Shown piece after piece: positions 7,306 through 61,254 of a stretch of 64,000 nt of DNA. Numbering within the stretch: the first letter of the stretch is position 1; every line of letters starts with the position of its first letter. Source of the DNA: Saururus chinensis (lineage: Eukaryota; Streptophyta; Magnoliopsida; Piperales; Saururaceae). The position numbers and the translations under genes are program-made. Location of the stretch: the NCBI GenBank assembly GCA_035235625.1, contig CP141145.1:37428668-37492667 (forward strand). Reading direction: 5' to 3'. A model generated the notes under the pieces. That model worked only from the letters and a program-made list of their open reading frames with translations, did no database searches and was not told where the DNA came from.

Positions 7306-9200
7306 TTGCATGCGTATGAGCATGTTTATGATTATATTATGATGACTGCTTCATGTTTGAGTTGCATTAACGCATGTATTTTTGAACTTATTGAGTTCAC
7401 CGTTTGGGATTTCCCCTACTCGATATTTTCCTAATAAGTATGAAAATACTCATTACCCTATTTTTAGCCCCGTTGCACGGGAGGTTTTGCAGGTTGTGCA
7501 GAGAGCTCCTAGAGATGGATGCTCGCTTCCGAGGTGGATTGATTCCCTTAGACTCAGGTATATGCTTCACTCTCTACGAGTTTATTTGTGCCAAGATCCG
7601 ATGTATTGGGTGAGACAAGATGTTAAGATGTTTATTCTAGACTTTCATTTGGATTAGTCGGTGAACTGTTATTGTCACAACCCGAGATTTTATAAAATAT
7701 ATATAAAGAGTTAAAAAGTAAAATTTGTGCTTGCTCAGGTCACAACCATACACGTATAACCATAAACGTAATATGAGATATTTTATTCCCCAGGAAATAT
7801 ACTGTCCCAAACACATAGGCAAAGAAATAAACAATCTTCTCAAGTCAAAAATATGAACATATACTTAGAAAATTATTGATGTGATCGTAGACTCTGTGGT
7901 CACCAGCTGAAGCTTCCAAAAACTATCTTTTACTGCTTTCTTTTACACCCGTCTATTCCACACTGGGCCCTGCAAGGTCTGGGGGGTGGTGAGTATTTTA
8001 AACTACTCAGTAGGGGTACTTATCCTATTAGACATAAATATAACACTTGGTAGTTTATAAATTTCAAGGTAAATAGACAATACTTTTTGAAAAAGCTGTA
8101 AGGGTGTGCCTCTCACCCAAAAACTTCCCTAGGGCTTCTTCCTACGTATCGAAGATGCTCCTAGGGTTTGTATTACTATTAAAGAATTTGTTACGGATAC
8201 AAAGTAGCAACCTCTTACTCCTCTACAGATTTTTCTTTAAACACTTTGTGCTTGTAGAGGGAAGAGCCACCCATACTCATGGGGCGCCGGGATCTAGAGA
8301 ACAAAGAGTTTTCCCAGGATACTGTCTACCCTAGCGCGCGTAGCCTTGATAGTTGCCCTTCGTTAGGGGCGAATCAGGGATCTTACCCTTCGTTAGGGGC
8401 TCACCAGGCTAATGTGCGTACCATGTATCCGATCCTAAACCGGATTTACCTGTGTACTCTCAATTACAGAACTCTATCGGTACGTCTACCAATTTGAGTT
8501 CCAAACAATTAAATTTCTTACATGCCCGCCTCAAATGGGAATTTCCTTCTCTTTTTCTTCTTCTACGAAGATCAACCTTTCAAAATCCTAGCCTCGCCTT
8601 TACAAGTCATAGTCGTGTTACTGACAATGATTTATAAAGGTAGGGTTAGTCGCTCGTTCCAACGAGACAGTTACCTCTTCTCTATCTCATCTCAGCAACT
8701 CGGTGGTCATGATTGTATGCATTTTCTAAAATTATTTTAATAGAGCATCAATTCCATAAAAACCATATTTCAATCTTATCATACTTTAAAATAATGGCGA
8801 AGCTAGATTTTCTTTATGTCACATATAACATAAAGCATAATTCAAAAGATAAACATTTAATAAATCAAGTATATGAGGCAATTCTAAAACATACATGAAA
8901 ATTAGCTATAATTATTCATATAAACTTTCAAAGACAACCAATGTAAGTATTTATGTTGTAAAAGAGGATAAAAGCCCCTACCTTGACTTCCGTGCGGGAA
9001 AATAACGATACTCTGGACAACCCGAAATTAAATGTTAGAGTTCTTAGCTATAGAGATCTCAAAATAAAAAAATAACTCCGCCATGACGTCCAGCACGCTC
9101 GATTTTGATAGAAACACCTCTTAAATCACTTAAATCAGACTTAAAACGAGGAATAAAAGAAAGAAACAAGTTTAGAATGAACTAAATGAGAACTGATCCT

Positions 9201-9208
9201 TATTTATA
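9201..9208 (-). promoter_or_regulatory. TATA box of nested solo LTR
   Basis: TATAAATA on the minus strand lies just downstream (in the minus direction) of the TGACG cluster. Position and spacing fit the core promoter of the LTR. Confidence 0.5.
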
Positions 9209-9240
9209 GAAAAATGGGAGTGGCGTGTGTCAGGCACGCA

Positions 9241-9318
9241 TGACGCATCTGACGCATTAATGACGCATGTCAGATGCGTCACTGACATGCGTCACATTTC
9301 TTATGCGTGTATCTGACG
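9241..9318. promoter_or_regulatory. Cluster of TGACG (as-1-like) motifs upstream of the LTR TATA box
   Basis: Six TGACG/CGTCA cores lie within 78 bases: plus-strand TGACG at 9241, 9250, 9261 and 9314, and CGTCA at 9277 and 9290. The first three are spaced 9 and 11 bases apart. Paired TGACG cores are the binding sites of plant TGA-class bZIP factors in as-1-type enhancers. The cluster sits directly upstream of the minus-strand TATA box, so an enhancer role is plausible, but this is inferred. Confidence 0.45.
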
Positions 9319-9938
9319 CGCATCAGATTTCTCGACGCTTTAATTAAAAAAAATTATTTTATTTTTTAAAAGTTTAAATATATCATATCTTCTTACCCCG
9401 ATGTCGGAATTTTGCGTTCTTTGTACTGATGGACTCGTATTGACGAGCCATTCGAAACTATACTAAAGTTGGATAGGTTATCTCACATTTTTAAATTAGG
9501 TCCCGCCCATATGACACGTTTCCCAAGGTCATAACCTTTCGTCCTAACCTCCGTTTCGTGTGTTCTTAGGTTCGTTACGCTCGTCTCACCGAGCTCTATT
9601 TATATAAAAAAATATTTAAAAACTTACGGATATTACAGTTATGGCACTTGCACTCAGAGATGCCTGGGAGGGATTTGTATTTAAAGTCTATGATCACAGC
9701 AATTTATTCGTACGTGAGTTTTCAAGTAGCACCTGATGATATTTACTTTGGTTGTACGATGTGTTGATCGTATGATGAGAATATTTAGATGGAAAATGGA
9801 TGTTTTTTGTTTTGAATTATAAACTATTTTATCAGGTTTTGATTTCATCATTTTTCTCTGATTTACAGACGTTATATTGCAAAAATTTTCCGTGAATTTT
9901 AAGGAAAATGTATGAAAAATCTCGGGTGTTACAATGTC

Positions 9939-11880
9939 TTACATGTCTAAAATGAGATTGTTTATATTTTATTTGTAAGGCATGCTTCTCGAATAACTTA
10001 GATAATGTATGCGATAATTCATAACACTCTTTACACTTTTATAAGTGATTTGGACAACTTTTCGGGATATAGACGTGAATGGAATAGCTTAATGAACATA
10101 ACAAAAAACTAAGTAAAAAATATGGATTGTCTAGTAAACAAAAGTTATCTTCCTAAACACAAACTCAAACACTTAATTAAACAGAACTGACTAGATTGAA
10201 TAAACATGAAGCAATTAGAAAATTTGGCAAAATCGACGCCCAATTTGGTTTCAATCACATAAATTAACGTGGGGTTTTTGTTCTTAACTAAAAAATGAAG
10301 AAGAGGGTTGTGTTAAAATTTGATTTTTGATGTATAGGGTGATGGACTTTTGAGTTCACATCCACAATCAAGTTCGGATTTGCCATTAGCGTTTTCTATC
10401 AGAGTTCCAAGGTTTGAAAACTGCATGAGTAATGCAATGAGAGGTTATTAGTGATTGAGATTATGTTGAATGAAACCCTAGTCAAAGTGTTTAGTTCATT
10501 AAGAGACACACATATGTAAATGAGAGTAAAGTAGATGTTTAGAGCAAGGGACAAAAAGAAATAAAAACTTGCAATCTAGTATGGAAAGGACTAATCAAGC
10601 CTAAAAATAAAAGAATGTGAGGAACATTAATTGTAGTTTTAGGTGATGTTTCCTATAGAAACAATGAAACACGAAAGTGTTTTATATGAGGGGCGAGGCT
10701 TCAATCGTGAAGTAGTTTGATCATGTAGATGTTGGTGTTGTAAGCAAGATGGAAGAGCATGAGCCCGACGTCTGCCAAAAGAAATGGGTTTGCACGATGT
10801 TGCCCAACATACAAAACCAATAAAGTAGATTTCAATTTGACTTAGGATTTTAATTAGGAAGTAACTTAGGGCAACCCAATTAAAAGCCTATAAAAACACT
10901 ACTTTACATGAGCAAAAAAGAGAGAACTGCATGAACAAAAGTGGAGAGCCACCAATGCCAAGCTACCTGATTGAAAAAATTCCAAAAGTTTAAGTGACAT
11001 AAATAGCTGAAGGCTGAAGTAGAGGAAAACTACCCAAATTATTTTCGTTTCAATTTTTTTCAAAAAATGTAAAATTTTTAATTACTAATAGATAATATGT
11101 TTTTAATTTCAATGAGTGACTAGTTTTCTTAACTAAGGTTAAGATGAACCTCTTATTAATTTTGTAGAGATTTATAAACTATGTAATTTGGTTAAAATTC
11201 AAATGGGTTTTAATGTTAATTATTATTTTTTCAATATTAAGAGTGGAATTGATTTGGAAATAAATTTAGTCATGCTCTTCTCGTAATTTGAATTAATTTT
11301 TATTAATTGAATGCTTCATTTAAGATGGTTAATTTTTAAAATTGGCTATGAGTTGTGACTTATTTGTATGGATACAACATATGACTTGGTTTTTATTCAA
11401 TTGAAGCGAGAAAGAACATAATTTTAGTATTTTGATTGAAGTTTTAAAAGATAAAAAAATTCATAATAAATAAAATTTAATTCTAATTTATTATGAGCTA
11501 TATTTGAGAAATAAATTGATGAACATATATGTGATTTTTTACATGTTAATAAGAGGAGATTCTGAAACCTTAGTCAATTTTTATTTAATATTTTTAACAT
11601 TTTTAATTATTTTCTTGGTTTAATTGAATTTTAACCTTTATCTTTTACTTGAATTCTGTTGTTGTTTAGTTCAATTTTGCAATTTAAGTTTATTTTCATT
11701 TATTATTTGCCTTAAATCCTTTTGACAAAATTAGTTATTATTTGTATGAATTGTTAATTAGATTAGAGTTTATTTGAGTTAAATTAAAAATAATTTTTAG
11801 ATTTCAACTCTATGGGATTGATAATCTATTTTAGTCGTTTATCTCCTATATATTCATGTGTTTGTGAATAATAATTAAAA
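9939..11880 (+). mobile_element. Old LTR-like segment, right piece
   Basis: This continues the segment interrupted at 3323. Matches to the LTR at 58448-59833 include ACATGTCTAAAAT, GTGATTTGGACAACTTTTCG and AAGCTTAATGAA-like blocks, then a CCTATAAAAA TATA box near 10900 and an AT-rich tail with an ACTCTATGGGATTGATAA block near 11805 resembling the CCCTGAGGTTCGATAA block of the other LTR. It is older and more diverged than its relative. The 3' limit is approximate. No retrotransposon protein is seen. Confidence 0.5.
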
Positions 11881-12030
11881 TTTAATAACACATATTCATC
11901 GAATTTATGAATAGACAATCTCATGTTTTTTTTACTCTAAGCTAAAGGAAGTATAAAAAATAAAAAAAAATAAATTTTTTATATTAAAAATATACATAAA
12001 ATAATATATATATAGAGTCTAGTTTATATG
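11881..12030. other. AT-rich spacer, nothing recognised
   Basis: This is 150 bases of A/T-rich DNA ending in the ATATG target site of the LTR at 12031. No gene or clear repeat end is visible, except that its last ~10 bases may belong to the terminal repeat of the foldback element that continues after 17135. Confidence 0.5.
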
Positions 12031-12949
12031 TGTAACGCCCGAGATTTTTCATCCCTTTTTCTCAAAACTCATAGAAATTTTTTTTTTCCATAAATCGGAG
12101 TCAAAACGATAAAATCCAAAACCTGTTTATAATTTAAAACATCATACGGTTAAACATCGTACGGCCAAATCAAATATCCTCAGGCGCTACCCGAAAACAC
12201 ACGTACGAATAAATTTTGTTATGATCATAGACTTTTAAATACAAATCACTCCCGGGCATCCCTGAGTACAAGTCCCCTAACAGTCCACTAACTGATCCAA
12301 ATGAAAGTCCAGATAAACATCAAGACGTCTCGTCTCACCCAATACAGGAGATCGTGGCATAAATAAACTCGCAGAGAGTCAAGCTGATACCTGAGTCAAC
12401 GGGAATCAATCCACCGCTGAAACGAGCGTCCATCTCCAGGAGCTCTCCGCACAACCTGCAAAACCTCCCGTACAACGGGGCTAAAAATAGTAGGGTGAGT
12501 ATTTTCATACTCAGTAGGAAAATACCCAGTAGGGGAAATCCCAAACGGTGAACTCCATAAGTTCATAAATCCATGCGTCATGCAACTCAAACATGAAGCA
12601 GTCAACATAATATAATCATAACATGCTCAAACGCATACGATCATACCAAAGGCACCATCGTGCCACAGACATACCGAAGGCACCATCGTGCCAGAATCAT
12701 ACCAAAGGCACCATCGTGCCAAAATCATACAATCCAATCAACTTACATAAACACCCTTATCTAGGGTCATACAACTTACTCGTACCACCGTACGCATACT
12801 CGTACAACATACGCATACTTGTACAACCTTACTCGTACAATCGTATGCTCACTCATACAGCTTACACATACATGTACGACCTTACTCGTACAATCAGACT
12901 CGTACGACCTCACTCGTACAGTCTGCACAAAATCATACTTACTGTCTTA

Positions 12950-13190
12950 CTCAGAAACATATTCTCACAATCGTACTCATACTCTTACAGTCGTGCTCAT
13001 ACTCATACGCTTACAGTCTTACTCATACTCATACGCTTACAGTCTTACTCATACTCATACACTTACAGTCCTGCTCATACTCATACACTTACAGTCTTAC
13101 TCATACTCATACGCTTACAGTCTTACTCATACTCATACGCTTACAGTCTTACTCATACACATACAGTCGTACTCACACTCATACAGTCGT
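12950..13190 (-). repeat. ~30-bp minisatellite inside the long LTR (about 8-9 units)
   Basis: Units of CTTACAGTCTTACTCATACT with a CATACG tail recur through the block. The counterpart at 6925-7015 in the other copy has about three units. Overlapping frames reading HTHTLTVLLI-like repeats come from the array. Confidence 0.8.
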
Positions 13191-13436
13191 ACTCATAATC
13201 GTACACATATCAACGACCACTGAAGCTCATTACAACTAATAAGCTCCAGCGTCGAAATGGAAAAGAATGCCACTGGGGCAACACCTTAACCTCCGGGGAG
13301 TGACTAGACGCCATGGACTTTTCCGAAGGTAAGGCACACCAATGCTCATGGGGCACTGGATCAAACAGGTAAGAGTAGATCCATGATACTACTTACCTGA
13401 GCGCGCAAACATAAACACCCACACATAAGGGGTCAT

Positions 13437-13575
13437 ACAGTTGCCCACCATAATGGGTCTTATAGTGCCATAGAATTGCCCACCATAATGGGTCTTATAG
13501 TGCCATAGAATTGCCCACCATAATGGGTCTTATAGTGCCATAGAATTGCCCACCATAATGGGTCTTATAGTGCCA
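13437..13575 (-). repeat. 34-bp tandem repeat inside the long LTR (4 units)
   Basis: Four nearly identical units contain CCCACCATAATGGGTC and TTATAGTGCCATAG. CCCACCATAATGGG is itself a dyad. Low divergence between units points to recent homogenisation. Confidence 0.85.
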
Positions 13576-13619
13576 TTGCCACTCTTGGGCAGAAACATAC
13601 AGTGCCACTCTTGGGCAGA

Positions 13620-13860
13620 AACATACAACGCTCTCAATAGAGCATCAAACGTCTGGGCTTACACAGCACACAGACCAAATCAGAAACATACGTCGCTCTC
13701 AGCAGAGCATCAGACGTCTGGGCTTCATACAGCACGCAGACAAAGTCAGAGACGTACATCGCTCTCAACAGAGCATCAAACATCTGGGCTTATACAACAC
13801 GCAGACCAAATCAGAAACGTCGCTCTCAGCAGAGCATCAGACGTCCGGTGCTCTACATAG
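13620..13860 (-). repeat. ~63-bp tandem repeat inside the long LTR (about 4 units)
   Basis: Units carry CGCTCTCAGCAGAGCATCAG, followed by an ACGTCTGGGCTTCATAC-like block. The related array at 6345-6520 has fewer units. Confidence 0.8.
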
Positions 13861-14619
13861 CACACAGACAACATCCCGCAGGATAAACACCATGGCAAGA
13901 CATGATAAATGCTCGGCCAACTCATCAGCGGCCAGCTCAAACACGGAACTTAATCCGTCGAACCCTCAGGTCTCAAACTCACAACGCTATCATTAGCTGT
14001 GCTTATAATTCAAGTTTGAATTAAATATATTATGCGGTACAATTATGCCACACAACTCACAGTCCTCGACTGGTCAAACCGAAGCTGAGCCCGATCCGAA
14101 ACCCAAGTTCGTTAGGGCAGCAGACTTCACTTACCCGTCCACATCATGGACAAAACTCATCGTACAACAAACCCTTACAGTCTTACACTTCGCCATCCAT
14201 CTTATGGCCAAAACCTCTTACACTGACATCTTCAAATAACGCTCCTCAGAGCCAACCCAGTTGTCGCCCTCTTACTTATATCTCACTTATTATACTTACT
14301 TTTCACTTCATAATCTGTACGTTATGCTTGTACAATTATGAACACTCTTACTGTCTGACAATCGCCCAACATACAATCCACCCCAAACTGATCCATTCTA
14401 ATCCTTACCCGTCATACTCTTATCCTCTGTCATACGCTTACACAACTGCATCCAAATTCAGACAGAGCTTCTATCACCTCTTACTGTCCATCACCCATAC
14501 CTCTGCCCACAAACACATACGCACATCCAAAGCATAGGCAAAATGCCATCATACATACGTATGTCTCACACATACGTATAACATATACATACGGTCATAC
14601 ATACATAACTTACAAACAT

Positions 14620-14830
14620 GCATGCTAGCCATCACTAGCACATGCATACACACGTCAAACATGCACGCTAGCCATCACTAGCACATGCATACATCAAACG
14701 TACACGCTAGTCATCTCTAGCACGTGCACACACATTCTTACATACTTCAAACATGCACGCTAGCCATCACTAGCACGTGCATAACCCATACATAGCATAC
14801 TGACATATTTGCTAGCCATCGCCAACGCAT
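14620..14830 (-). repeat. ~52-bp minisatellite inside the long LTR (about 5 units)
   Basis: The motif GCTAGCCATCACTAGCAC recurs about five times. It is the reverse complement of the nine-unit array at 5165-5590. Confidence 0.8.
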
Positions 14831-16119
14831 ACATAATCCACATCCATAAAACATGCATACATCTCATGCCTATCAATCATACCATACAATCATGCTTACA
14901 CGCACCTCATGCAATCGGATCGTTACTTAACATCCAAGCATGGAATCATACAATCCTAGCATGCTGCTACTCATTCAAAGCATGCTTCATGAATTTACGA
15001 GTTCAAAACTCCCCTACCTCGTAATCACGATGTTCGATGGCGAGCACCCGACGGTGGCGGCGTCGGCGGCGGAGTTGGCGGTCAAAACCGTTGCCTGGCT
15101 GAGAGAGCTGCTGTCCTGAGGATTTCAAAATGCGCCGGAACTATCACGGCCAAACAGAGTGTCAGATATCAATGCGGTAAAAATCCGCGATCCACGGCGG
15201 CACACTAGGGCGGCCGGGAGAAATCTCATGCCAACATAAGTGGCGGTGCGACCAGAAGTCAAGGGTGTACACTCTGAAGATCAGCCGGTGGCTAAAACGT
15301 GCTCAGCCGGCCACAAAGACATCGAAATCGGCCGTGGACAGCACCCAACGGCGACGATTTCGGTCAACAAAGGCCCACATAAGGGCGGAGAGCGTGGGGC
15401 AACGCTCGAGAACAAAGGAGAGGTGGAGGACGGCTCTAATGGTCAACTCCACTCAGTGGCAAAGCCAACCGATGGTTAGGCGGCACGAATGCGGCGCCTA
15501 AACCCAGAAGTACACGCGTGGCCACATGCACACGCGACCCAAAGGGCGGGGGAAATGGCTGAAATGAGGCGACTCAAGGCCCACAAAAGCCAACAGGGCT
15601 AAAGCCCTTAGCGGTGGCCAATCTAAGTGGCGACATCGCCGATCGCCACCCACAACCAAAACCCATGGTGCGGGCGGCTGTGCATCTCGCACGGCAGAGA
15701 GCAAGGGGAGGGTTCACGGTCGAGCAAAGGCCATGAGGCCGTCACTGGCCAAGGCCTGAGCAGGTGAACTCGTCCACCTTCTGTCAAGGTAAAACATACA
15801 AATTCTTGCCCGAGACCGTCCGGTACCGACGGCGTAAAATGGGCAAGAAGGGTCAACGGCACACATGCCGGTAAGGTGGACTAGCTGCGGCTACGGGCCG
15901 CAAGGCTGAACAAGACCCAGAGGGTGGCCCACTGGTGTCACCGGGCTGGGGCGGAGCCAAACTACGGTCCGCTAAATCAAATCCGGCGTCCGACTGATAA
16001 CGTCAGTCACCACGTCCAAAACGGACGTAGGCCAAAAATAGGGGACGACCGGAGAAAACCCGTAAGGGCTGAGCGGCCATGGGGGCGGCGGCTGAATCGG
16101 GCACGGAGGTGTAGCCCAC

Positions 16120-16640: not shown

Positions 16641-17136
16641 GGCGGAATCGCAATAACACAGTAAAAGGGGCTCACCGGAAAAGTGGGGGCGGAGCGGCCG
16701 TGGGCGGCCGAGGCAGTGGCCTCTCGGCGTCGCACCGCCGGGGCGGAGCCTGTGCCGGCGTCCAGTGGCCTGCCGGCGGCCGGTGGCGGCCGGGCACAGT
16801 GAAAAGGCGGAATGGGGGGGGGGGCGGTACTGTTCACAATTTCCTTCTGGATCGGGCCGAGCCCGATGTTTTAACTGTGATTCTTTTATTTTTTCCACGT
16901 ACGTCCCCAACGCGCGTTAACCCACTGGTTACGCGTCGAACCTCCAAAATTCGCGCCGTAAGCGCGCAGCGAGGCCCGTGGCCCGCGACTAAGCCCCACA
17001 CCCGACTCTACGGGTATAAATATGGGGAAAAGACACAAATACCCATACGCTGAAACGTCACATTTTTCTGCCGAAAATGACCAGAAAAATGGCAGAAAAA
17101 TCCCAGAAAATCGTAGAAAAATCAGGGACCTTACAA

Positions 17137-17315: not shown

Positions 17316-17318
17316 TTT

Positions 17319-23559
<6,241 letters not shown>

Positions 23560-27856: not shown

Positions 27857-29467
27857 TGTAATAACCCTAATTTCTAACACGATCTTCTTATATGTTTTGA
27901 TATTTATAATTTTCTTAAGTATTGGTTAGACCTTGTGGAGACGAGCGTAATAAGTCTTAAAATGCGAAGATCGGAGGTCGGGAGCAAAAGTTACAACCTC
28001 TGGGAACGTGTTCAACCGGCAGACCCACTTTCAAAATTTAGGTGGAACGGTTCTTAAATAGTTTAGTATCGTAGGGCTCGTGATTACGAACTCAACGGTA
28101 CCAAGAACGCGCAAATCGAAGTTCAGGATAGGAAGTTACGATTTTTAAAATTTTTAGGAATTAAAAATTATAAAATAATATTTTTCGGCGCGGCGCAGCG
28201 CAACGTGTAGCATGTGCCACACGGCGCGCGCGTCGAAAGCATGATGACCGCGCGTTCGCGGTGACGAACGCATATTCGTCACGCGCGAACGTAGTTTCGT
28301 CGGTGCAGGCCAGATTTTCTGGCGGCGCCGGTGGGCGCCCACCGGAATATTCCCCTCCTCACCTATATATACCCTTGCCGGCCATATTTCTCACCCATAT
28401 CCGATTTTTAACCCCTTCACTGTTTTCACCATTCCCGACCCGTTTTAAGTCCGATTTTCACGTTTCAAGACCCGTTTCCTACTAATTCAAGGGTGCTCTA
28501 TGCACCGGAAGCGTTACTTTCTCGAGACGACCCTTCTAAGACCTCAAAAAACGTGCCCCTTCACTAATCTTCCCTTTTCATCTTTTTACTATTTCTGGGT
28601 CATTCCTAACCCTTTTTAACCCCTTCCAAAGCCCTACCCTACTAAATCAAGGGCATTCTACGCGTTGGAGTGGTTATTCTACCAAAATTCTTGCTCGAAG
28701 GCTGATATATTAAGGCGAGACTCTCTTTACTCTACCAGGAGATTTTCGCACGTGTTATAGGTAGGTAGTTTTAAATTCTAATCGTATGCCGAGATTTTGA
28801 CTCGCTAAAGTTTTACTAAAAGTTTTCTGTTACTTTATGAAAACAAAAGCTCTGACTTCAAAATCATCTCCTCTTTTCGAAAATTTCTTCGAGTTTTGGG
28901 CAATCGTGCCGTCTGGATAGTTCTCGGTTCTTCGGAGCTAAGAATTATTATGATTTTGGATACCGCCAAATTTAGCATCTGGCGCGCACAGGATTGGGAT
29001 GGCATGGGTAAATCCCTTCCTTTCAGTCTCGCGTCGCCCCATGGGCGCGGGTGTAAGTCGTCTGGTATCACGGCATTCTGTGATTGTGTTTTCAGGTTTT
29101 CCGGATGATTTCCAAAAAGAAAAAAATGGCATGTGCACGAAGCATATTCTTAGAACTTAATTCGACCTACTGAGTACGAATTTACTCACCTACCCTCAGA
29201 CTCTGCAGGTGTTTCACTCGAATCTGAAGGAGTCAACAAAGGGTTCCTTTAAATTACAGTTTTGTACTACTGTTTTTGTACTTATGTAAATTATTGTATT
29301 GACCAATGTACAAAGGCATGTGATGCCTAATTTTGACAATCTTTGTATAATACAAAGTATGTTGTAATTACTGTTTTAGTACACGGTGATCCTTGGCAAT
29401 TGTAATTAAATTTTATTACGTTTTCAAAAATTGTTTTCTTTTATTCGAAAATATGAGAAACGTTACA
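27857..29467 (+). mobile_element. Solo LTR (1.61 kb) inside the CACTA-like element
   Basis: The ends are TGTAATAACC and AAACGTTACA, with a perfect 5-bp duplication CCCAG at 27852-27856 and 29468-29472. In order it holds a GC-rich block with dyads (28190-28340, including TGACG...CGTCA), a TATATATA box near 28364, and a CTACTGAGTA/TACTCACC stem-loop (29168-29190) followed by a CTCTGCAGG site. It looks whole as an LTR. No internal region is present. The layout matches the solo LTRs at 7673 and 33532. Confidence 0.88.
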
Positions 29468-38979: not shown

Positions 38980-39022
38980 AGGGCTCCGACCCACAGCCAG
39001 TAGTCTGATCGTTCCCCTCCCC

Positions 39023-39037
39023 TGGGCTAAACCCTAA
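39023..39037 (+). promoter_or_regulatory. Site II (TGGGCT) plus telo-box (AAACCCTAA) of NIP7
   Basis: TGGGCT at 39023-39028 abuts AAACCCTAA at 39029-39037, 47 bases before the start codon. In plants, telo-boxes coupled to site II motifs (TGGGCY, bound by TCP factors) mark promoters and leaders of ribosomal-protein and ribosome-biogenesis genes and tie them to cell growth. This agrees with the identity of the gene. Confidence 0.7.
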
Positions 39038-39083
39038 TCTGCATCTAAAACCCTCTCCCTCCAAAACGAGAAGAAATCGGAGG

Positions 39084-39647
39084 ATGAGGCCCCTGGATGA
39101 GAACGAGACGACGGCCGTGTTCGAGAAGCTGTTCAAGTTTGCCGGCAACAACCTGAAGAACATCGTGGAGCGTCCTGCCCTGGAGGGCCCCGACCCCACT
39201 CCCGGCCGCTACTGCTTCCGTCTCCAGAAGAATCGCGTCTTCTATGTTTCTGAGTCGCTCGTCAAGCGCGCCACCAATATCTCCCGCGACAACCTCGTCG
39301 CCCTCGGCACGTGCATCGGCAAGTTCACCAAGGGCGGCAGCTTCCACCTCACCATCCAGTGCCTCGACCTCGTTGCCGCCCACGCCAAGCACAAGGTTTG
39401 GGTCAAGCCCACATCCGAAATGTCTTTCCTGTACGGAAATCACGTCCTAAAGGGCGGGCTCGGTCGGATTACTGAGAATACGGCGTCGGGCGACGGGGTT
39501 GTGGTGTTCTCCATGTCAGATGTTCCGCTGGGGTTCGGGATTGCTGCCAAGTCGACGCAGGATTGCCGGAAGCTGGACCCAAATGGGATCGTGGTGCTTC
39601 ATCAGGCGGACATCGGGGAGTATTTGAGGATGGAGGACGAACTATGA
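39084..39647 (+). CDS. NIP7: 60S ribosome subunit biogenesis protein NIP7 homologue
   Basis: This is a single uninterrupted 187-residue frame, the usual length for plant NIP7. It starts [16 protein letters not shown] and contains the family blocks [80 protein letters not shown] and [10 protein letters not shown]. Residues ~1-95 form the alpha/beta pre-PUA domain and ~97-175 the RNA-binding PUA domain. In yeast and animals NIP7 works in the nucleolus in pre-60S particles and is needed for 27S pre-rRNA processing; the plant role is inferred from strong conservation. The codons are strongly GC-ending, unlike the AT-rich flanks. A site II/telo-box pair lies just upstream. The gene is intact, and neighbours are unrelated repeats. 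Confidence 0.97.
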
Positions 39648-49500: not shown

Positions 49501-51310
49501 CGAGGATGCAGCGAGGTCAAAACATCAGTGGGCAATTGAGGACGACATTGCACTTGTGAGATCTAGTTTTTTACTTTTGTAATTTTGTAAGTAATTGTAA
49601 TTACTGGTGTGAGAGCTAACTTTACTTAGTTATTTATTTTCAAACAGATGAGTGACTTGTACTTATATAGAGGGTTAACCTATTATTTATCAAATTTTGA
49701 CACGTGTAATAATATAATATGTTTTGATATTCATATTTGTGAACCTAAATTATCATGACCTCAATTAATGAGATGATTTGTTTTGTGTTTAAGAAAAAAA
49801 AAATTATTGTGATTTATCGCATGTTCTTTATTTAAAAAGGGTTTTAAAAAAATCTGGGTTTTGACATTTAGTGTAGTTTGAATTTTTTGTACTTATAAAA
49901 TTACTAATATATCCCTAGTCTTTATTAACCCCTCTTTATTATTTTCAGTCATGGTCTAATTTACCCCATAAAATATGAGAAGCTAGGATTAACTCCAAAC
50001 AATGATTTTAATTATTTTGGAGTAGGTTTTGGTCCAAAAATAATTGTTGGTCATGGGGTAGATGACAAATTTATCCCCATAGTTGGACAAGGCTCGCATG
50101 TTAAAAATGTATTGGAAAATAATTTTATTCTAAATTCTTCCAAATTTTATGTCATTAAGGAACATCAAGATATCATAACAAGACTAAGAATATTTTATTA
50201 AGCCTATCAGGTGTAGGTTTACTAATCCATACATGAAAATTAGTCTTGTTGTGTTAGTTTAATGTTTTAAGTTGTATCTAGCTAGGTATGCATAAGGGTT
50301 GTTGACACATGAGCGGTGATCCTATTGTAGCAATCCAAGTTGCACTCTTCATTGCTAATTAGCATATAGATAAGTAACATTGGTTCCTTGTGTGGAAAGT
50401 GGTCATAGTTGACCTCTTAACATTGAGTTCCATGAGTCTAGTTATACTTGCTTCCCTAGAGTTGGGACAATATAAAAGAGTTACAATATGCTCACTAATA
50501 ATAGCCATGATGAAAACCAACTTGTGTGGTCACAGGCTTTTGTGGCCTCAACATTTTTAGGGCTTTGGTCCTTAGACCTTGTTAGGCACTATGTGTGCGC
50601 CTAGGTTTATGGACATCATGGAAGACCCATCTACCTCTAGCCATCGTTGTCTATGAGCATGATGGTACCCACGTCTATAATCCAATGGCTTATCCTAGTA
50701 GATCTCTAGAGCGTTGGGATTTTATGTTCTATTTGACAACCTACTCATTTGAACAAAAGTTTGTTTACTTAAAGCCGTAGAATTAGTGTCCTAGCAACAA
50801 AGTTTAGTTACTCCTTAGAGTTGGTTTTGCTTATAAAGTCGGACTTTATGTCCTTTTGCTAAACATGATATTAAGTCTTGTGACATCCTATAGATGTTAC
50901 GGTTTAGTGTGGTTACATTGTCTAGCGGCATTCATTTAACGATATCACTTTCTCTAGTTCCTTTTCAATTTATAATATTGCATGAATATAAGTAGTTTTG
51001 ACATCTTACTGAGTACTATCGTACTCACACATCTTTATGATGCAAGGATAACTTAGAAAGACAAAAGCTTCAGAGATTTACTACTTTACCAGGTTTGTTA
51101 TTTTAAATTGTTGTTTCATTTGTACATGACTGAGAGATCTTAACAATGTTTACTTTTTGTAAATATTGTTATATTAATAAGATGATAAAACACCTAGAAT
51201 GCTTTCGAAAGAAGAATAAATCATGGTCGGGTACTTTTCCAAAAATGGATTTTGAAGTGATTGAAAAATGTGTCACCTTGAAAATTGTTTCAAAAACCCA
51301 GGATGTTATA
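46575..51310 (+). mobile_element. LTR-like block (TGTAATATCC start), probably with insertions
   Basis: It starts TGTAATATCCCAG like the solo LTR at 27857, and 46720-46760 has the shared ACCAAGAACGCGCAAATCAG block, followed by GTTTGGATGAGGGAGTTATG. Near the right side a TTACTGAGTAC/GTACTCAC stem-loop (51008-51028) and a terminus-like GGATGTTATA at 51301-51310 fit the 3' end of the same type. At 4.7 kb it is longer than its relatives. A second LTR-like start at 47740 suggests nesting. The 5-base flanks do not match, so the pairing of these ends is tentative. No retrotransposon protein is seen. Confidence 0.5.
47740..49370. mobile_element. Possible nested LTR-like segment
   Basis: TGTCACGACCGAG at 47740 resembles LTR termini at 7673 and 60650. 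At about 48955-49045 an AGCTTAGCTCACC phrase followed by CTATTTCTATTCAGGTGCAG resembles the 3' part of gypsy LTRs. The right end was not found, so the end given is a guess. Confidence 0.3.
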
Positions 51311-52690: not shown

Positions 52691-52819
52691 TTTAACATAA
52701 TAAAATACTCTCTGCCATTTCAATAATTGAAAAATCATATATTTTTGTTTTAAATGAATACTCAATTAAAGATAAAAGGGAAAATTATTTAAATAATATT
52801 TTTTTAAAAATAATTACTA

Positions 52820-53100
<281 letters not shown>

Positions 53101-53159
53101 TAAAAATAATGTTGTGAATTCGTCATGAGCTTGAGTTTTATGTTTATGTACATAAACAT

Positions 53160-53806
53160 CATAGGGAGCTTCAGGGGGATAGTTCTCTTCACTCACCAGC
53201 TTGGTTTCGCTCCACCCCTTTTTTCCGTGTTGCAGGAGACTGAAGCGCACTAACTAAGACTTGTGGGTCTGTGAGATCGAGATGCGTGAAGCTCTAGAAT
53301 GCAAATATAGTTTTTCTTGCTTGTAAAAAAATCTTCTCCTCCCCTTTTGTTATGTACATCTCTGAGAGGGGTAGCGAGGAGAGAAGAATATGGCTTGATG
53401 ACTATGTATACTGTTTTGTTTGTTTGTTGAGAGCTTGATGATGTAGCTATGCCACATAATGTGAATGGAAACTTTTTTCTTATCTCACTTTTTGTTCTAG
53501 TTCTTTCTGTTATTTTTCTACTTATTTTGATGAGAAGAAATGGATGACAAAGGAGAGATAAATATGAAATGAATGATAGAAGAAATGGTACATGATGATC
53601 CTCTCTAACGGGGTAGCTACGTAGCAAGCGATGCTTGCCACCCAGCTCAAAAATCGGGTCAAGGTCGAATCATGGCCGAAGGCCTAGTCTCATTCTCCAC
53701 TTCGACGCGGATTTGGGAGAAGATGTCAATCTCGTTCTCCACTTCGACATGGGTGGGGGTAGAACAAGAAACGGTGGCCACAGACAAGGGCATGGAGTAG
53801 GATGAC
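53160..53806. other. Short LTR-like remnant and unassigned DNA
   Basis: A CTTCACTCACCAGC phrase near 53190, followed by a T-rich block and GTTGCAGGAGAC at 53231, resembles the 3' part of LTRs elsewhere in the window. The TCTCATTCTCCACTTCGAC phrase occurs twice with small changes (53690 and 53733). No gene is seen. Confidence 0.35.
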
Positions 53807-54087
53807 TGATAAGTATGACTTGTTACTAGATTAGTATTAGGATAATTCTATCTACTTTAGATTCAGTTTACTTTAGTTTTTAGGTTAATTCTTAGTTTCT
53901 TACCATTTTTTTTTAATTTGATTTTGTAAGCTAAGTTGAAGATCGTGCTCTCTACACTTGTGGCCACAAGTGGACATCGACAAGCATAGTGCTTCTCTTC
54001 GGTTTGCAAGATTTTTTTTCTCTTTATTTTTAGTTCTTTTCTTAGTTAGTTTTTGCTTGTTATTTCCCTTTTTACACTTAAAATTGT

Positions 54088-56550
54088 GTGGTGTGTTTGT
54101 GGTGTATGCGTGGTCGTCGCTCCTTACTCCCCCGATTAGTACCATTTGACCACGAGCACGAGCGGACGTCTAGGAGAGCTGAGTTGCCCTCGACCTACAT
54201 CCCTACACCCCCAAACTCTCCCACCAATTCCTCCACCCACACTACTTCTAGCCCCATAATGGCTGAACATCAGTTAGTAGATGCACCACTTAAAGCTCTA
54301 AGGGAGTATTACACTCCCAATGAGTACACCTCTCCTTCATGCATTAGGTTGCCAGAGGTCGCTGCCCAAAATTATGAGATTAAGCCCAATGTCATTCAAA
54401 TGCTTCCATCCTTTTATGGGCTTAATAATGAAAACCCGTATAGGCACCTAGATGACTTCTTAGAACTATGCACAACTTTTAAGCTCTCAAATTTAACCGA
54501 TGAGGCTGTTAAACTTCGCCTTTTCCCTTTCACATTGAAAGATAAGGCAAAGGAATGGCTTCACTCATTAGAGCCAAACACTATCACAACATGGGCCCAA
54601 ATGCAACAAGAGTTCCTTAAAAAGTACTTCCCCATAGGTAAGACCAACCAAATGAGAAAGGCCATAACCACTTTTGCCCAACTTCCTACTGAACAGTTCC
54701 ATGAGAGTTGGGATAGACTTAAGGACCTTCTTAGGAGGTGTCCTCATCATGCTGTCCCTAAGTGGCAATTAGTGCAACGTTTTTATGAGGGTCTTACTGA
54801 ACAAAACCGTCATCTTGTTGATGCAAGTTGTGGGGGAACCTTTTTGCTAAAAAATGAAAATGAGGCATGGAAACTTTTTGAGGACTTGAGTGAAAATTCT
54901 CTTCAACATGCTGCGTTGAATAGAAATGAGAGTGTATTATCTACTTTAAACAATGCCCCCTCTAGGGGTGGCTTGTATGAAGTCAAAAACCCATTAGACC
55001 TCTCCTCCAAAGTTGATATTTTGAGTAGGAAGCTGGACCTTCTTATGACTTCAACCCATCATCCCACTCCCTTCACTCAAGATACATGCACAATATGCCT
55101 TAGCCCAGCCCATACTATCATTGAGTGCCCCTCTGCCTCTCAGTTTCCTGAGCTTGTCCAAGACCATGTGAATGCTACCCAATCCTTCCCTAGGGCTGAG
55201 AACAATCCATTTTCAAACATATATAACCCTGGGTGGAGGAATCATCCTAACTTTTCTTGGCAGACACAAAACCAAGGGGTTATGGGTAACCAACTCCCTA
55301 GGCAACCATTCCAAGTTCCACCAGCCCATATCCACCAACCTCAAGTGCAACCTCCATATGTCCAACCCAATAGGAGTCCAAGTTTTGAAGAAAAGGTCTT
55401 GAGTGCCTTGCAAGGCCTTCAATCTCAATCCCAACTCCTCCACTCTCATACACAATCTATAGCAAAGTTAGAAGCCCAAATTGGACAACTAGCTAATGTT
55501 ATTAACAAGAGAGAGATGGGGACGTTGCCAAGTCAACCCCTACCAAACCCTAAAGGTCAATTTCAGGTAGAGGGAGCTCCTCCCTCTAATGAACAAGTTA
55601 ATTCCATAATGACCCTTAGGAGTGGGAGGATTATTGACAAGAGTGTTGGGGGGACACCAATGATAGATAATAGGACTGAGGAGTTAGAGAGGGCAGCCCC
55701 TAATGAACCTCAAGTAGAAGTTAGTACACCACATGAGAAAGAGTTTGTATCTCCTTCCCCTTCCTTAGAGCCACAGTCTAAGACCACCTCTGAGGGATCT
55801 TATATCTCTAGGGCACCTTTTCCTCAGTGTCTTGATATGGCCCCACCATTTAGAAAAAGCACAGCTAAGATGGATGATATTCTTGAGACTTTTAAACAAG
55901 TTAAAATTAATCTCCCCCTCTTAGATGTCATTAAGCAAGTCCCTGCTTATGCTAAGTTCCTCAAAGACCTATGCACTCACAAACGTAAATCCAAGACCCA
56001 TGTGTCTAAGAAGGTCTTTCTCACCGAGCAAGTTAGCTCTCTTATGAAGTTTGACACCCCACCTAAGTATAAGGACCCTGGAGTACCCACTATTTCTTGT
56101 GTCATAGGTGATCACTCCATCCATAGAGCCCTCCTTGACCTTGGTGCGAGTGTCAATCTACTCCCTTACTCGGTGTATGAACAACTAGGGTTAGGTGAAT
56201 TGCAGCCTACATCAGTTACCTTGCAGCTAGCCGACCGTTCTGTGCGTAAGCCTCGGGGAGTCATTGAGGATGTCTTAGTGAAGGTTGACCGGTTCTTTTT
56301 CCCTGTTGATTTTATTGTCTTAGATATGGAAACCGGTGCCAACCCCACATATCAGATTCCTATCATTCTAGGTCGTCCTTTTCTTGCCACAGCTAATGCA
56401 TGCATAAATTGTAGGACAGGGGTAATGGAGATGACTTTTGGGAACATGAAAGTGCACCTAAATATTTTTTATGTGTCTAACCATTTGCCTGCAACTTCTA
56501 ATGCTGAATATTTTATGGTAGACAATTTTAGATTTGATGCTTATGGATAG
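54088..56550 (+). CDS. Retrotransposon Gag and aspartic protease polyprotein (Athila/Tat lineage)
   Basis: This is an 820-codon open frame. The likely functional start is the Met at 54259 (residue 58, MAEHQLVDAP), because family members begin near this block; the upstream part may be leader. Residues ~110-270 form the retrotransposon gag (capsid) domain with LPSFYGLNNENPYRHLDDFL, LRLFPFTLKDKAKEWL and FLKKYFP blocks. Residues ~334-347 are a CX2CX4HX4C zinc knuckle, which binds RNA. Residues ~660-790 form a retropepsin-like domain with LLDLGASVNLLPYSVYEQLG and an IILGRPFLATA block. In living elements Gag assembles cytoplasmic virus-like particles and the protease matures it. No polymerase follows in any frame before the 3' region, so enzymes would have to come from another element. 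Confidence 0.9.
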   Translation: MVCLWCMRGRRSLLPRLVPFDHEHERTSRRAELPSTYIPTPPNSPTNSSTHTTSSPIMAEHQLVDAPLKALREYYTPNEYTSPSCIRLPEVAAQNYEIKPNVIQMLPSFYGLNNENPYRHLDDFLELCTTFKLSNLTDEAVKLRLFPFTLKDKAKEWLHSLEPNTITTWAQMQQEFLKKYFPIGKTNQMRKAITTFAQLPTEQFHESWDRLKDLLRRCPHHAVPKWQLVQRFYEGLTEQNRHLVDASCGGTFLLKNENEAWKLFEDLSENSLQHAALNRNESVLSTLNNAPSRGGLYEVKNPLDLSSKVDILSRKLDLLMTSTHHPTPFTQDTCTICLSPAHTIIECPSASQFPELVQDHVNATQSFPRAENNPFSNIYNPGWRNHPNFSWQTQNQGVMGNQLPRQPFQVPPAHIHQPQVQPPYVQPNRSPSFEEKVLSALQGLQSQSQLLHSHTQSIAKLEAQIGQLANVINKREMGTLPSQPLPNPKGQFQVEGAPPSNEQVNSIMTLRSGRIIDKSVGGTPMIDNRTEELERAAPNEPQVEVSTPHEKEFVSPSPSLEPQSKTTSEGSYISRAPFPQCLDMAPPFRKSTAKMDDILETFKQVKINLPLLDVIKQVPAYAKFLKDLCTHKRKSKTHVSKKVFLTEQVSSLMKFDTPPKYKDPGVPTISCVIGDHSIHRALLDLGASVNLLPYSVYEQLGLGELQPTSVTLQLADRSVRKPRGVIEDVLVKVDRFFFPVDFIVLDMETGANPTYQIPIILGRPFLATANACINCRTGVMEMTFGNMKVHLNIFYVSNHLPATSNAEYFMVDNFRFDAYG

Positions 56551-56559
56551 AGGTCCATC

Positions 56560-58447
56560 TTTTGTAGCATTAGCCCATAATCAAGTTATGCCTTCTAATT
56601 TTTCTACATCATCTTTTTGGAGACTTAAGAGAAGAGCCAATGCTAATATCTACCAGCCGCCCTGATATATTTGAGAATGTTGGCAATGTCTGGCTGAAGA
56701 CATTAAACTTAGCGCTTCTTGGGAGGCAACCCATGTTTTTGATATATTTCTTTACCTTCCTTTTGTTTATTTTCTTTGCTTCATTTAGGCTTTATTTACT
56801 TATTTTCTCAGTTTTTTTCTCATTATAGTTTTTCTTCTTTTATGAGATCTAATACTTTAGGTTTGGGGGAATGCTCATCACTTATATTTATTTCTTTTCT
56901 CCAATCCTATGTACTTCACTTTCAGATTAGTGGATTAGTTATGCTTTCAGGTGATATCTTTCTTTTCCCTCTCTTACTTATTCTTGTCATTGTAGTATAT
57001 ATTTTCTTTAACATTGAGGACAATGTTCAGTTTAGGTTTGGGGGTGTAGAAAGATAATTTTTCTTTATTATTTTTCTTTTAGGATGTTTTAGAGTATTTT
57101 TTTTTCATTTTTCTTTTGTTCTTTTCTTTTAAGTGGGTTTTATCGCTTATTTTCTTTTAAAAGTATATGTCTGTTTTTAAAGAGATCAATTTCATGAAGA
57201 AAGTTCAAGTAATTAATTAAGTGATGAAAATGATTAAGTGAGTAATTTCTATTTTATTTTCATTATCTTGGATAATTGTGCTTATATTTTTAAATCACAT
57301 TTCACACACTTGAAACTTGTAGGAATATAATTTTATGATTTATTACTTGTAATCTTAGTGGGATATCTTTAACTGAGCATATATTTTTGAAAACTTGGCA
57401 ATTGAGTAATTTTTAATATTTTATGATAGATCTTTATGCTTAGCTTTTATTTGAAAAAAAATGGGATAAGGTGTATAGAAAAAAAATGAAAAAAAAATAA
57501 TAAAAAAAATTTTAAAAAAAAAGTTGAAAAAAAATGATGATGAAAAAAAAAATTAAAAAAAAGGTTTGTTTCTCTTTTTACTGAGTAACCGGACCTTGTG
57601 CCTAGGCAAGTATAAGGGATCGCGTCAAAAGGTGAAAAGTTGAGATAAATTCTTTTATGACTTGCTTGGTTCTGTAGCCTTTATAGTTCGAGTTATTAAG
57701 CCTGAGGGGTGTTTCAACACCTAGTGCCTTGAGCCAACTGGATTAGGGAAACTGGCTTAACGCTTGTTACATGGACTATTTAGAAAGCTTAATAGAACTA
57801 AGTATTGCACAAGTCATATTTTAAGGTATATTATGCTCTTATTCCCTGAATTTAATTTGAAGGCTATTACATGAAGGTTTATTATGAGGTGTTAAAGATG
57901 AAAGATTGTCATTGTTATATTTTTGAGTTAGTGAACTTTAATGAGCTTGGGTAATGGGTAACATAAGATATGCTTGTTAATAAAGAATGAAATCATATGA
58001 CTATAAAGTTTCTACACTTTATATTTTTGAAATGTATATATATAGTTGCACAATTATTTCTAAGATGGGGTTATAAAATGGATTATTCCTTACTTGAAAG
58101 TGATCAGATCTTAATTGTTTACTTGTTTCAAGTATTTGTGGTTAGTTCTTTTTAAAAATAGTTATGTGTTTTTAAGAGAAAATTATTTTTCAAATTTTTG
58201 TTTTCTTGTTTATTTGTTTTATTTTTCTTAGGTTTTAATGTTTGTGGGTATCATTACTGCAAACCCTCACGAGACACAACTTGTCCAACTAGGGACACAT
58301 AGGGGTTTAAAGGCTTGTTGCATATGCTAAATGCAATCGTGATTCCCTACGAAAGTGGCTTTTATTTATTTTATTTTTTTTAGATTAGTTGTTTTATTTT
58401 ATTTTTGTTTTGCTCGAGGACTAGCAAAATATAGGTTTGGGGGTATT
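56560..58447 (+). other. Non-coding 3' region of the gag element with polypurine tracts
   Basis: Three GTTTGGGGG tracts occur at 56861, 57037 and 58435. The last abuts the LTR and is the likely primer for plus-strand synthesis. Conserved lineage motifs CTTGGGAGGCAACCC (~56718) and ACATTGAGGACAATGT (57011) are present. An A-rich tract lies at 57470-57565. Frames of 60-93 codons are T-rich and not convincing. Confidence 0.6.
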
Positions 58448-59833
58448 TGATAAGTATGAAATCTATATCTATTTTATATGTCTTTTTACCTTATTTGCTA
58501 GTTTAGATTAGGTTAATTTAGAGTTAGTTATGGTTTATTTAGATTAAGATAAATATTAGTATTTTAGTTTAATTATTAATGATTTTGTAGTTATTAGTAG
58601 TTTAGATGTGTATTTAAACAAAGTTGGAATTTTAATTATATTCTACATGTCTAAAATATGGTATTTTATGTTTTGTAGGTAAAGTGCACTTATTGAAGTA
58701 CTTGGACGATGTTTGAAATGCTTGAAAATAGTCTTCACATGCTTTAAAGTGATTTGGACAACTTTTCGGAGTTATAAACAAGTTAGAAATTAATATGGAC
58801 ACGAAGGAAAGCTTAATGAATAGTCCGGGAAAATAGAAACACTGTAGCCGATCGATCGGGGTCACTTACCGATCGATCTGGATAACGTGAATTCAGACAA
58901 AAAAATAGTGTAGCCGATCGATCGGGCATGCAGGGCGATCGATCAACATAACGTGCAGTTTCCTTGTTTAACCCAAATTCCAATCCTTTTCATATTGGAT
59001 TTCTTCCTACGGAACTTATGCCTATAAAAAGCCATATTTGGCTTAGAATTAGGGGATTCCAGTAGATTTTAGAAGGAGAAAAAGGAAGAAGAAGATGGAA
59101 GAGAACTCAAAGCTTTCAATGGAGATTCAAGTGCTTTCTTCTACCATGGAAGGCTAGACTTTTCTTTTACTTAGGAGTTGATGAAGCTATAGATAAGTTT
59201 CAGTTTCTTTTCTTTTTAATTTAGATCTCAGTTGTGAATGATGACAATTGTATGATATTGATTTCCTTTTTAATGGAAGAGCTTTTAATGTTTATTCAAG
59301 TCTATGTTGATTTGTTGTCTTGTAGATGATAGATTGATATGGTTTTGATATTTGCATCGATTCTAATTTCTGTGATTTAGATGAGATGGTCATACAATAG
59401 TTTTAATGTTCAGATAATTAATGACTTGGATGAGTTATACTAAGATTAGACGGGTCATGCCTATAGCTAGTTTAGTGTAGATGATCCGTGCTATTGTCGA
59501 AGATAGTTCATGCCATGGAAGTTAATTAATGATTCTTTTTGAAGTAATTCTAGCTTGTAGCTGAGAATACTTGTTCATGTTCACACTAGATTTAGATTAA
59601 AAGTTAAGGAATTGTTATGGTTTTATAGTGAATTCAATTTCCTAAGTAATTTCCATCAAATTAATCTCTTATTTTAAACTAGTTGATTCCTTTCTTTTGC
59701 TTAATTTAAGTTTAAGTTGTTTTTAGTTTTTAAATCAGCAAATTCCTCTTTAGATTTAGTAATAACCCATCCGTCCCTGAGGTTCGATAACCCTTAAATA
59801 CTTATCCTAGTACAATTACCTTGTACACTTGCA
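58448..59833 (+). mobile_element. 3' LTR of the gag element (~1.39 kb)
   Basis: It begins TGATAAGTATGA right after a polypurine tract and probably ends CACTTGCA at 59833. A TATAAAAAG box lies near 59023. Upstream of it, four GATCGATC palindromes sit in 58853-58935, inside GCCGATCGATCGG-type phrases. The tail has the CCCTGAGGTTCGATAACC block usual near the end of Athila/Tat LTRs. An older relative is split at 3135-3323 and 9939-11880. Confidence 0.7.
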
Positions 59834-60012
59834 AAGGGTTTAATTATAAACGATCAATGACCTCTTGACAGTGATGAGGTGGCTGCTGGTCTGGAATCAC
59901 TGCACCCAAGTGGGCTCCGATGACGATCGACTCCATCGACGAGTTTGAGCTTGTTCCCTGCATTTTCTGTGCCATCCTCACCGTTTACGAGGATGACCTC
60001 GCCCACCCCCGT
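59834..60012. other. Short spacer, nothing recognised
   Basis: 179 bases between two elements. No gene or array is visible. Confidence 0.4.
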
Positions 60013-60649
60013 TGTAACGCCCGCCCATTTTTTATTAATATAATATTAATGATCTTGTCCGACGTGCGTAATTAGTACACACGAACCGGATTGACGGGTG
60101 TTAATCGTGAAACGATCGTATGCTCAAAGTAGAATATGTCGGAGTATTTGCACAGCCAAGAAAAAAATAAAAACATATTGACAAAAAGTTTATAACATAA
60201 GTTTAATATACATACCAAAATTTACTGTACATGGAGCCAGTAGTTATAAAAACATGATTATCTTGGCACATCATGTCTTTACACGTCGGTCACATATATA
60301 ATTACATTATGTAGAAAACACACGACTATTTGAAAAACTTTTCTTCTTTCCCTTCCTCCATCATCGCAACATCTGCAAGGGTTGGGGGTGCATGAGTATA
60401 TTTATACTCAGTAGGTTTGTTTAAAAATCTAAAAGAAATGCTAAGCAAAAACATCTTTTAAAATCAAATCAAACAAATTCACAAAATCAATCAAATCCAC
60501 AAGCCGCGATACCCAACGGCCTACCTCCGCGCTCATGGGACAACAGAGGCCACTAAGGGAAGGAGTTTCCCCATGATACTCCACCCTGTGCACGCCACTA
60601 GCCGATCATTTTTCTCGGTAGGCATCAAAACAGTGTATGAAACCACAAC
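60013..60649 (-). mobile_element. Left part of another LTR, interrupted by the LTR at 60650
   Basis: It starts TGTAACGCCCGCC. Read on the minus strand it has the CCTACTGAGTATA/TATACTCATGC stem-loop (60391-60415) followed by CCCCCAACCCTTGCAG, the same 3' layout as in the other LTRs, and a GATCTTGTCCGACGTGCG block near the end resembling 33600-33640. Its 5' part presumably lies beyond the window after the nested LTR. Confidence 0.6.
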
Positions 60650-61254
60650 TGTCACGCCCCGGTGATGCCCGACCCGAGCCGAACCCGGTCCAAGGGCCGG
60701 TCAAGCGCGCGGGGGCGACGAAGTGAAAATTGAGAAAACGATCTAGCGGAAGACTTAACCCTAACCACGGGCGATTAACAGCAACACGGAGTGCGCACAA
60801 TCCTTTGAGCAAGAGTAAATAAAAGGGAAGAAAAAGGTATTGCTTATCACAAAGTAAACAACAATCTCAAACCCACAAACTTAGTTAAGTAAAGCCCACA
60901 CCGGCTCAAAATAAGTCATAATCATCACAACTGTATTATATGACATAAATCCAAAACAAGAACCCTACACAAAGGTTCGTACATAAAGCATGAAAGAAAC
61001 GATGATAAGTCACTCAACGATCTCCATCATCACACCCAAGCTACCTCTGACCTTTCCTCAAAGAGGCAATCCTGTCCGTCTGCGTGTCGCACCACGCAGC
61101 CCCAAATCAAAACACAAAAGAGGGGTGAGTTTTAACACTCAGCAATGGTTTTAATATCACTGTCAACGTAGAAAATACGATAGCTTAGAAATGAGATCGT
61201 TCAGATCAAAGATTTACATGGTGCATCACTTTCTGATCACACATTCATATCACC

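Follow-up and report, generated by a model that had tools for sequence, protein, structure and literature searches.

Hairpin 1 in the window and its host elements

The stretch analysed here, referred to as the window, comprises 64,000 nucleotides (nt) of Saururus chinensis contig CP141145.1 (assembly GCA_035235625.1, positions 37,428,668 to 37,492,667, forward strand). It carries several retrotransposon long terminal repeats (LTRs) which contain a stem-loop with a GAGTA/TACTC stem, termed hairpin 1, as one part of a longer module. This module is real, conserved and structured, and recent copies alone do not explain it. The existence of the stem-loop, claimed by an original prediction made from the letters of the window, is borne out by its frequency: GAGTA-N2-12-TACTC occurs five times in the window against 0.32 expected, with five reached in none of 100 shuffles, and the strict hairpin 1 pattern matches the genome 3,423 times, its reversed counterpart 0 times. 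All genome-wide word searches cover one genome (11 contigs, 516 Mb in total), with matches to the reversed pattern serving as control. The form ACTGAG-N6-18-CTCACCC gives 3,595 matches against 139 reversed, a few loop types making up most of the first 100 listed, and the ACTGAGTB.. form gives 616 against 94. For the ACTGAGV.. form overall, matches are no more frequent than reversed ones (328 against 351), while the GAGC..GCTC subset of the GAGV pattern is real. Viral contigs yielded eight matches, none with a downstream primer-binding site (PBS), and these are regarded as chance.

At all seven places of the window the stem folds on the strand that had been predicted, with fold energies that are ordinary for the most part (z 0.01 to -2.70). 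The precise form proposed for it, CTACTGAGTA followed by TACTCACC, holds at 29168, 7988 and 12493 (three of the seven) and fails at the other four: 60391 retains the left half only, 51008 starts with TTACTGAGTA and ends with TACTCACA, 7429 reads CTAATAAGTATGAAAATACTCATTA and 61122 reads TTGCTGAGTGTTAAAACTCACC. Similarly, the TGCAG said to follow downstream is present in five of the seven copies, those at 51008 and 61122 lacking it. The description of the seven as residing in otherwise different LTRs has to be given up, as the copies represent six families, with 7429 and 12493 belonging to one family and being ~85% alike over kilobases, and most of the remaining LTRs have short blocks in common with distant families. 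The position near the 3′ side stands, with the LTR end lying ~300–500 nt downstream of the hairpin where located; for the copy at 51008, residence in an LTR is putative.

In family I, hairpin 1 (12493..12518, minus strand) reads GAGTAT-GAAA-ATACTC and is followed by CACCC, a hairpin CCCGT/ACGGG and TTTTGCAG^G, the caret marking here and below a putative splice point. A donor-like GAG^GTAGGGGA (15010..15020, minus) lies 2.5 kb upstream of this hairpin, with the largest drop in guanine plus cytosine (GC) content no more than 7 nt away. The P block of this copy (13336..13400, ends approximate, minus) has loops TATCATGG and CCCCATGAG, and the LTR 3′ end GGGCGTTACA is at 12031..12040 (minus). The second family I copy, on the plus strand, has a decayed hairpin 1 at 7429..7455 and a donor-like AG^GTAGGGG at 4990..4998. 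It is interrupted by a family E LTR of ~2 kb without internal part (7673..9637, minus; TGTAATATCC...GGTTGTGACA, with ATAAC on both flanks) and continues at 9638. Within this family E LTR, hairpin 1 (7988..8014, minus; GAGTAGTTTAAAATACTC, then CACCACCCCCCAGACCTTGCAG^G) lies downstream of a donor-like AG^GTAGGGG at 8975..8983 (minus; -967 relative to the hairpin). The family A LTR, on the plus strand, displays the leader word TTTTAAGTCCGATTT at 28443..28457, a donor-like TATAG^GTAGGTAG at 28756..28768 (-407) and hairpin 1 at 29168..29190 (GAGTACGAATTTACTC, then TACCCTCAGACTCTGCAG^G).

The 51008 copy (51006..51028, plus), only putatively part of an LTR, has the form GAGTAC-TATC-GTACTC. At the far end of the window, on the minus strand, are hairpin 1 of the W60391 family (60391..60415; GAGTATAAATATACTC), with a stretch of the same LTR holding the P block at 60478..60602, and hairpin 1 of a family H LTR (61122..61145; GAGTGTTAAAACTC), which is followed by hairpin 2 (61080..61099; CTGCGTG-GTGCGA-CACGCAG, covarying). 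Within 60478-61782 the family H LTR apparently directly precedes the P block of the LTR at 60391 and masks the donor region of the latter. The predicted fold of the family H copy (61060-61145, minus) pairs CCCC with GGGG on either side of the pyrimidine run, which would place the run in a loop that separates hairpin 1 from hairpin 2.

Two pairs of loci ~7 kb apart, L001/L002 and L003/L004, are interpreted as the paired LTRs of two elements, each LTR measuring ~1.74 kb, with pair identities of 96.8% and 98.1%. The 5′ LTR of the first element (L001/L002) is followed by TTGGTATCGGAGCC, and TTGGTATCGGAGC follows LTRs L002, L027 and L060 as the PBS and presumably fits the initiator methionine transfer RNA (tRNA-Met). 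A word comprising LTR end plus PBS occurs at 239 genome places (0 reversed), and from 100 of these as listed 20 were taken with varied words and without consideration of the hairpin. Within the last ~640 nt of these LTR ends, hairpin 1 was clear (0–2 mismatches) in ten and degenerate in two (L135, L151); it is common in such LTRs, not universal. Six LTR-end-plus-PBS places at C1:20677342-20713151 (genome G000) stand on one strand at ~7.15 kb spacing, which suggests a head-to-tail array of elements with shared LTRs. TATA words and LTR starts were found by pattern in some families only.

A piece of the element with these ~1.74-kb LTRs, examined for protein domains (family A, L077), carries RVT_1, RT_RNaseH, H2C2 and rve in order in one open frame, succeeded by a Tf2-1-like SH3 match (E 5.6e-29) and a Chromo match (E 1.1e-4, 22.5 bits) which is below the Pfam cut-off of 25.1 though located at the expected place, the integrase C-terminus. 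By these predicted domains, the family A element encodes a chromovirus-type pol. The elements may belong to the Tekay/Del clade, a name suggested by the LTR ends. In the window itself, no Rfam family reached its gathering threshold and a search for tRNAs gave none.

Ordered blocks and the donor- and acceptor-like sites

Comparison of ten LTR sequences by blastn revealed short blocks arranged in one order: a U3 block, a leader, the P block and the hairpin block. The P block mostly lies 80–350 nt before the hairpin, with 825–888 nt in family I. Families A, B, C and E display the complete order of leader, donor-like word, two-hairpin P block, hairpin 1, C/T-rich run and CAG, while family I possesses every block but the leader and has the longer gap. 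In families H and K, hairpin 1 is followed by a U-rich run and a second hairpin, and family H has the U3 and leader blocks in common with the others by blastn, not the P and hairpin blocks. L46 is closely related to C (72% over 499 nt), and the long blastn match between H and W60 represents the nested H copy.

Between leader and hairpin, AG^GTAGGG or GTAAGT followed by a TTTTAAAYTC-like word is found in families A, B and C, and less exactly in E and I. A leave-one-family-out donor matrix, scored over 3,412–4,552 positions of both strands in eight LTRs, ranked this site first in five (A, B, E, E45 and C41), second in I and eighteenth in L46, with the top match of C40 lying 4 nt from the first register; the test is partly dependent, the sites having been picked by eye. 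The donor also coincides with a compositional step that all 10 LTRs show, the mean GC content falling from 0.467 to 0.300; the ten constitute five groups (A, B, E, I, and C with L46). For eight of the ten, the span's greatest drop in GC lies no more than 30 nt from the donor, with a chance expectation of 1–13% each. For family I, the donor word GATTACGAGGTAGG has 3,194 genome matches and 83 reversed.

On the 3′ side of the stem, CACC, a C/T-rich run and CAG follow one another. The distance from the A of CTCAC to AG^G is 19–21 nt in nine of ten rows of A, B, C/L46 and E, 48–52 nt in all seven rows of K and 40–42 nt in all five of I, with a hairpin between; in family H the first AG is 45–48 nt away in 10 of 16 rows. 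This spacing sample comprised 16 group H rows, 7 of 10 from K and 5 from group I, the family K loci being 600-base stretches. CTCAC, into which the 3′ arm of the hairpin continues, is taken to be plant branch-point-like, and such distances would be compatible with a branch point followed by a 3′ splice site. Family K, in which a U-rich run leads to a hairpin 2 ending in GCAG, looks most like this arrangement by its sequence. From CAG^G to the LTR end there are ~300–350 nt in A, C and E; in family B the LTR end was not located downstream of CAG^G. Donor, branch-like site, pyrimidine run and AG are in order in A, B, C and E, and in I with a longer gap. An alternative stem is conceivable in family I LTRs, L013 and L014 among them, where CCTACTGGGTATTTT, immediately before hairpin 1, may instead base-pair with GAAAATACTC.

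Covariation of the hairpins and the P block

The core TGAGT/ACTCA of hairpin 1 is near-invariant, with compensated changes present between families only. Across 25 rows of family H, hairpin 2 covaries with a score reached by 2 of 500 shuffles. Combining 35 H and K rows over hairpins 1 and 2 gave 92.3% paired cells against 89.4 (standard deviation 0.7) when shuffled, and 27 double-change cells against 12.7 (standard deviation 2.8), both reached in 0 of 500 shuffles, while slid versions of the alignment gave at most 47.3% paired. Counts of double-changed pairs and of further pair types did not exceed the shuffled values (296 and 467 of 500). The GAG/CTC pairs are uninformative in this comparison because they were set by the search words. 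At pair 4, U-A in 23 rows is replaced by C-G in nine, with GAGC/GCTC in K for GAGT/ACTC. The shuffle controls for covariation retain the kinship between rows, and the resulting figures are not probabilities.

Alignments A1 and A2 exclude L015, L039, L037 and L044 as same-locus duplicates, and A2 also L073, which has a deletion in hairpin 2. Among loci of the ACTGAGTB search, L049, L051, L054, L067, L068 and L076 were removed as they did not join group H, and L118, L120 and L131 were removed from a set of 14 loci for differing flanks. L116 and L117 are absent from A3, yet present in the P0/P2 pairing test.

The P block word TATCATGGG-N18-45-CCCCATGAGC has 998 genome matches and 0 reversed. Forty loci were chosen from 100 listed P-block matches, the stem of hairpin 1 not being used for the choice, and the hairpin was found with at most 3 mismatches in 34, of which 25 were distinct. 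Its pairs 1–5 are near-invariant in these loci and display no covariation, while longer stems, TATAAA/TTTATA and TATTTT/AAAATA, are present in different loci; in hairpin 1, sequence is conserved as well as pairing. Within the P block itself, the P0 stem has 121 of 140 cells paired (28 distinct arm pairs, 45 rows) against a shuffled mean of 108.8 and a maximum of 119 in 5,000, with 29 double changes against 8.5 shuffled. The P2 stem has 60 of 84 paired against a shuffled mean of 42.4 and a maximum of 55. The loops of P0 and P1, TCATGGGG and CCCCATGA, are complementary, with a compensated TCGTGGG/CCCACGA in L040; in L041 and L46 the loops do not pair, and as the loop words elsewhere were fixed by the P-block search, few families bear on the loop contact. 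The P2 loop often has GGTATC, a word that is also in the PBS (for example L002, W60391 P block); a contact of this loop with the primer tRNA is an open possibility.

The selected structure proposed originally, put to the covariation check, is supported for stems changed on both sides between H and K, for the second hairpin and for P0 and P2, all of which exceed shuffles, and not for hairpin 1 taken alone in the P-selected loci. G.U exceeds A.C by 17 to 4 in P0, without a clear difference in H and K (24 to 14, p 0.14) or in hairpin 1 of the P-selected loci (7 to 4), and with A.C ahead in P2 (11 to 14), counts which lean towards a sense-strand RNA without being decisive.

A proposed intron-like unit in the R region and its alternatives

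Hairpin 1 may be the structured 3′ end, containing the 3′ splice site, of an intron-like unit in the R (repeated) region of chromovirus LTRs, a reading that is advanced tentatively as the most favoured one and judged to fall slightly short of an even chance. The spliceosome would then use the donor-like and acceptor-like sites, with the hairpin partly hiding or positioning the branch point and rendering splicing incomplete. Spliced RNA would be translated, while unspliced RNA would retain the structured P block, serving packaging, dimerisation or export, and would be the RNA that is copied; the P block, being inside the unit, would make a natural candidate sorting signal. If only unspliced RNA were copied, this would explain why unit-less LTRs are not seen, whereas copying of spliced RNA should give rise to LTRs without the unit. 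The 3,194 donor-word matches of family I, set against 0 intron-less copies, suggest that the copied RNA is unspliced. The absence of such copies fits either a unit that is never spliced or spliced RNA that is excluded from copying, and intron-less copies are a needed criterion for an intron only if spliced RNA is reverse transcribed.

A comparable arrangement exists in human T-lymphotropic virus (HTLV) and bovine leukaemia virus (BLV) as well as in foamy viruses, which have their major 5′ splice site in R and use unspliced RNA as genome. Retroviruses in general keep spliced RNA out of copying. These viruses resemble the plant LTRs described here in the location of the donor downstream of the start site within R, and differ in that here the candidate donor and acceptor, recognised in sequence alone, are in one LTR with structured blocks between them. 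Plant LTR elements are generally without introns, Ogre and EVADE being named as exceptions, and the introns of Ogre, EVADE and BARE yield, alongside the full-length RNA, subgenomic or short-GAG forms, with no intron inside the LTR described for them in the relevant passages of that source (PMC12786077). The same passages describe the transport elements of MusD and intracisternal A-particle (IAP) RNA, in which a kissing-loop RNA (MusD) lets full-length RNA exit the nucleus (PMC12786077); the P block also has complementary loops, an analogy of form only. As outlined by Benachenhou et al., an LTR consists of TATA, R, polyadenylation signal and U5, with residual conservation of R tied to stem-loops, while for plant Metaviridae hidden Markov models (HMMs) could not be built owing to excessively variable length (PMC3601003). 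The present blocks belong to that very group without HMMs. In the open-licence literature, no paper was found on an intron inside a plant LTR or on hairpin 1. A more elaborate scenario, whereby a large plant chromovirus lineage would have a whole intron in R, an intron-borne kissing-loop would select unspliced RNA for packaging, the intron would survive reverse transcription and the hairpin would act as a branch-point switch keeping splicing partial, is conceivable from these features and rather unlikely. An ordered, structured R region would provide a handle on how elements separate translated from copied RNA, and a means to classify and delimit the LTRs of elements forming a large part of many plant genomes.

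A number of observations weigh against an intron-like unit. The full block set is confined to four families, which lowers confidence, and blastn among the ten LTRs found none of the blocks in W51 or L49. No donor was seen in W51 and W60, that in H and L46 is indistinct, and the greatest fall in GC within the span is away from the donor in A and E_L043. Furthermore, the initial splice-site matrix was approximate, with donor sites first chosen by eye. An extra AG occurs 8–10 nt past the CTCAC A in A, B, L041 and two of three E rows, and 13–14 nt past it in I, while the acceptor of family H is indistinct, with AG^G by pattern in 2 of 16. Hairpin 1 was not found in the last ~640 nt in 8 of the 20 PBS-picked LTR ends, and the sense-strand test of G.U against A.C is mixed. 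Searches for intron-less LTR copies with gapped exact words gave 0 for family I and 0 for family A, diverged copies being able to escape them.

Of the roles proposed originally, 3′-end formation and packaging keep some probability, a leader-intron 3′ splice site being better favoured by the surroundings. All blocks could form one genomic-RNA signal for packaging, dimerisation, primer placement or cap-independent translation, with the splice-like words being accidental. This is unlikely, if the best of the alternatives: it would accommodate the several covarying hairpins, the complementary P loops compensated in L040 and the lack of any copy from spliced RNA in families I and A by exact words, but the donor word, GC drop, branch-like CTCAC and CAG^G coincide in several families. 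An assignment of the hairpin region to the polyadenylation apparatus, as a structured upstream element marking the 3′ LTR for cleavage ~100–300 nt downstream, appears improbable. In LTRs read by eye the hairpin is indeed upstream of TTGTA- or AATAAA-like words in the last 300–500 nt, yet the conserved donor block, the far-upstream GC step and the fixed CTCAC-to-CAG spacing are left unexplained.

It is highly improbable that hairpin 1 is a DNA palindrome for a dimeric transcription factor with TGAGT...ACTCA half sites; these are near-invariant in their core, yet their spacing varies with the loop, K has C-G for U-A on both sides, the neighbouring hairpin covaries and G.U exceeds A.C in P0. Variable loop length together with double changes disfavours a protein-binding DNA palindrome. 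Shared ancestry of recent copies without selected function, which the original prediction had itself named as a challenge, has equally little to commend it, as despite the few loop types among the first 100 listed of 3,595 matches the blocks persist though most LTR pairs have little else in common, and double changes preserve pairing.

Beyond the LTRs with hairpin 1, the window contains an 822-amino-acid open frame at 54082-56550 (plus) that matches Retrotrans_gag and, weakly, an aspartyl protease. A NIP7/UPF0113-like open frame (PF03657, PF17833) at 39009-39647 (plus) represents a host gene amid the repeats.

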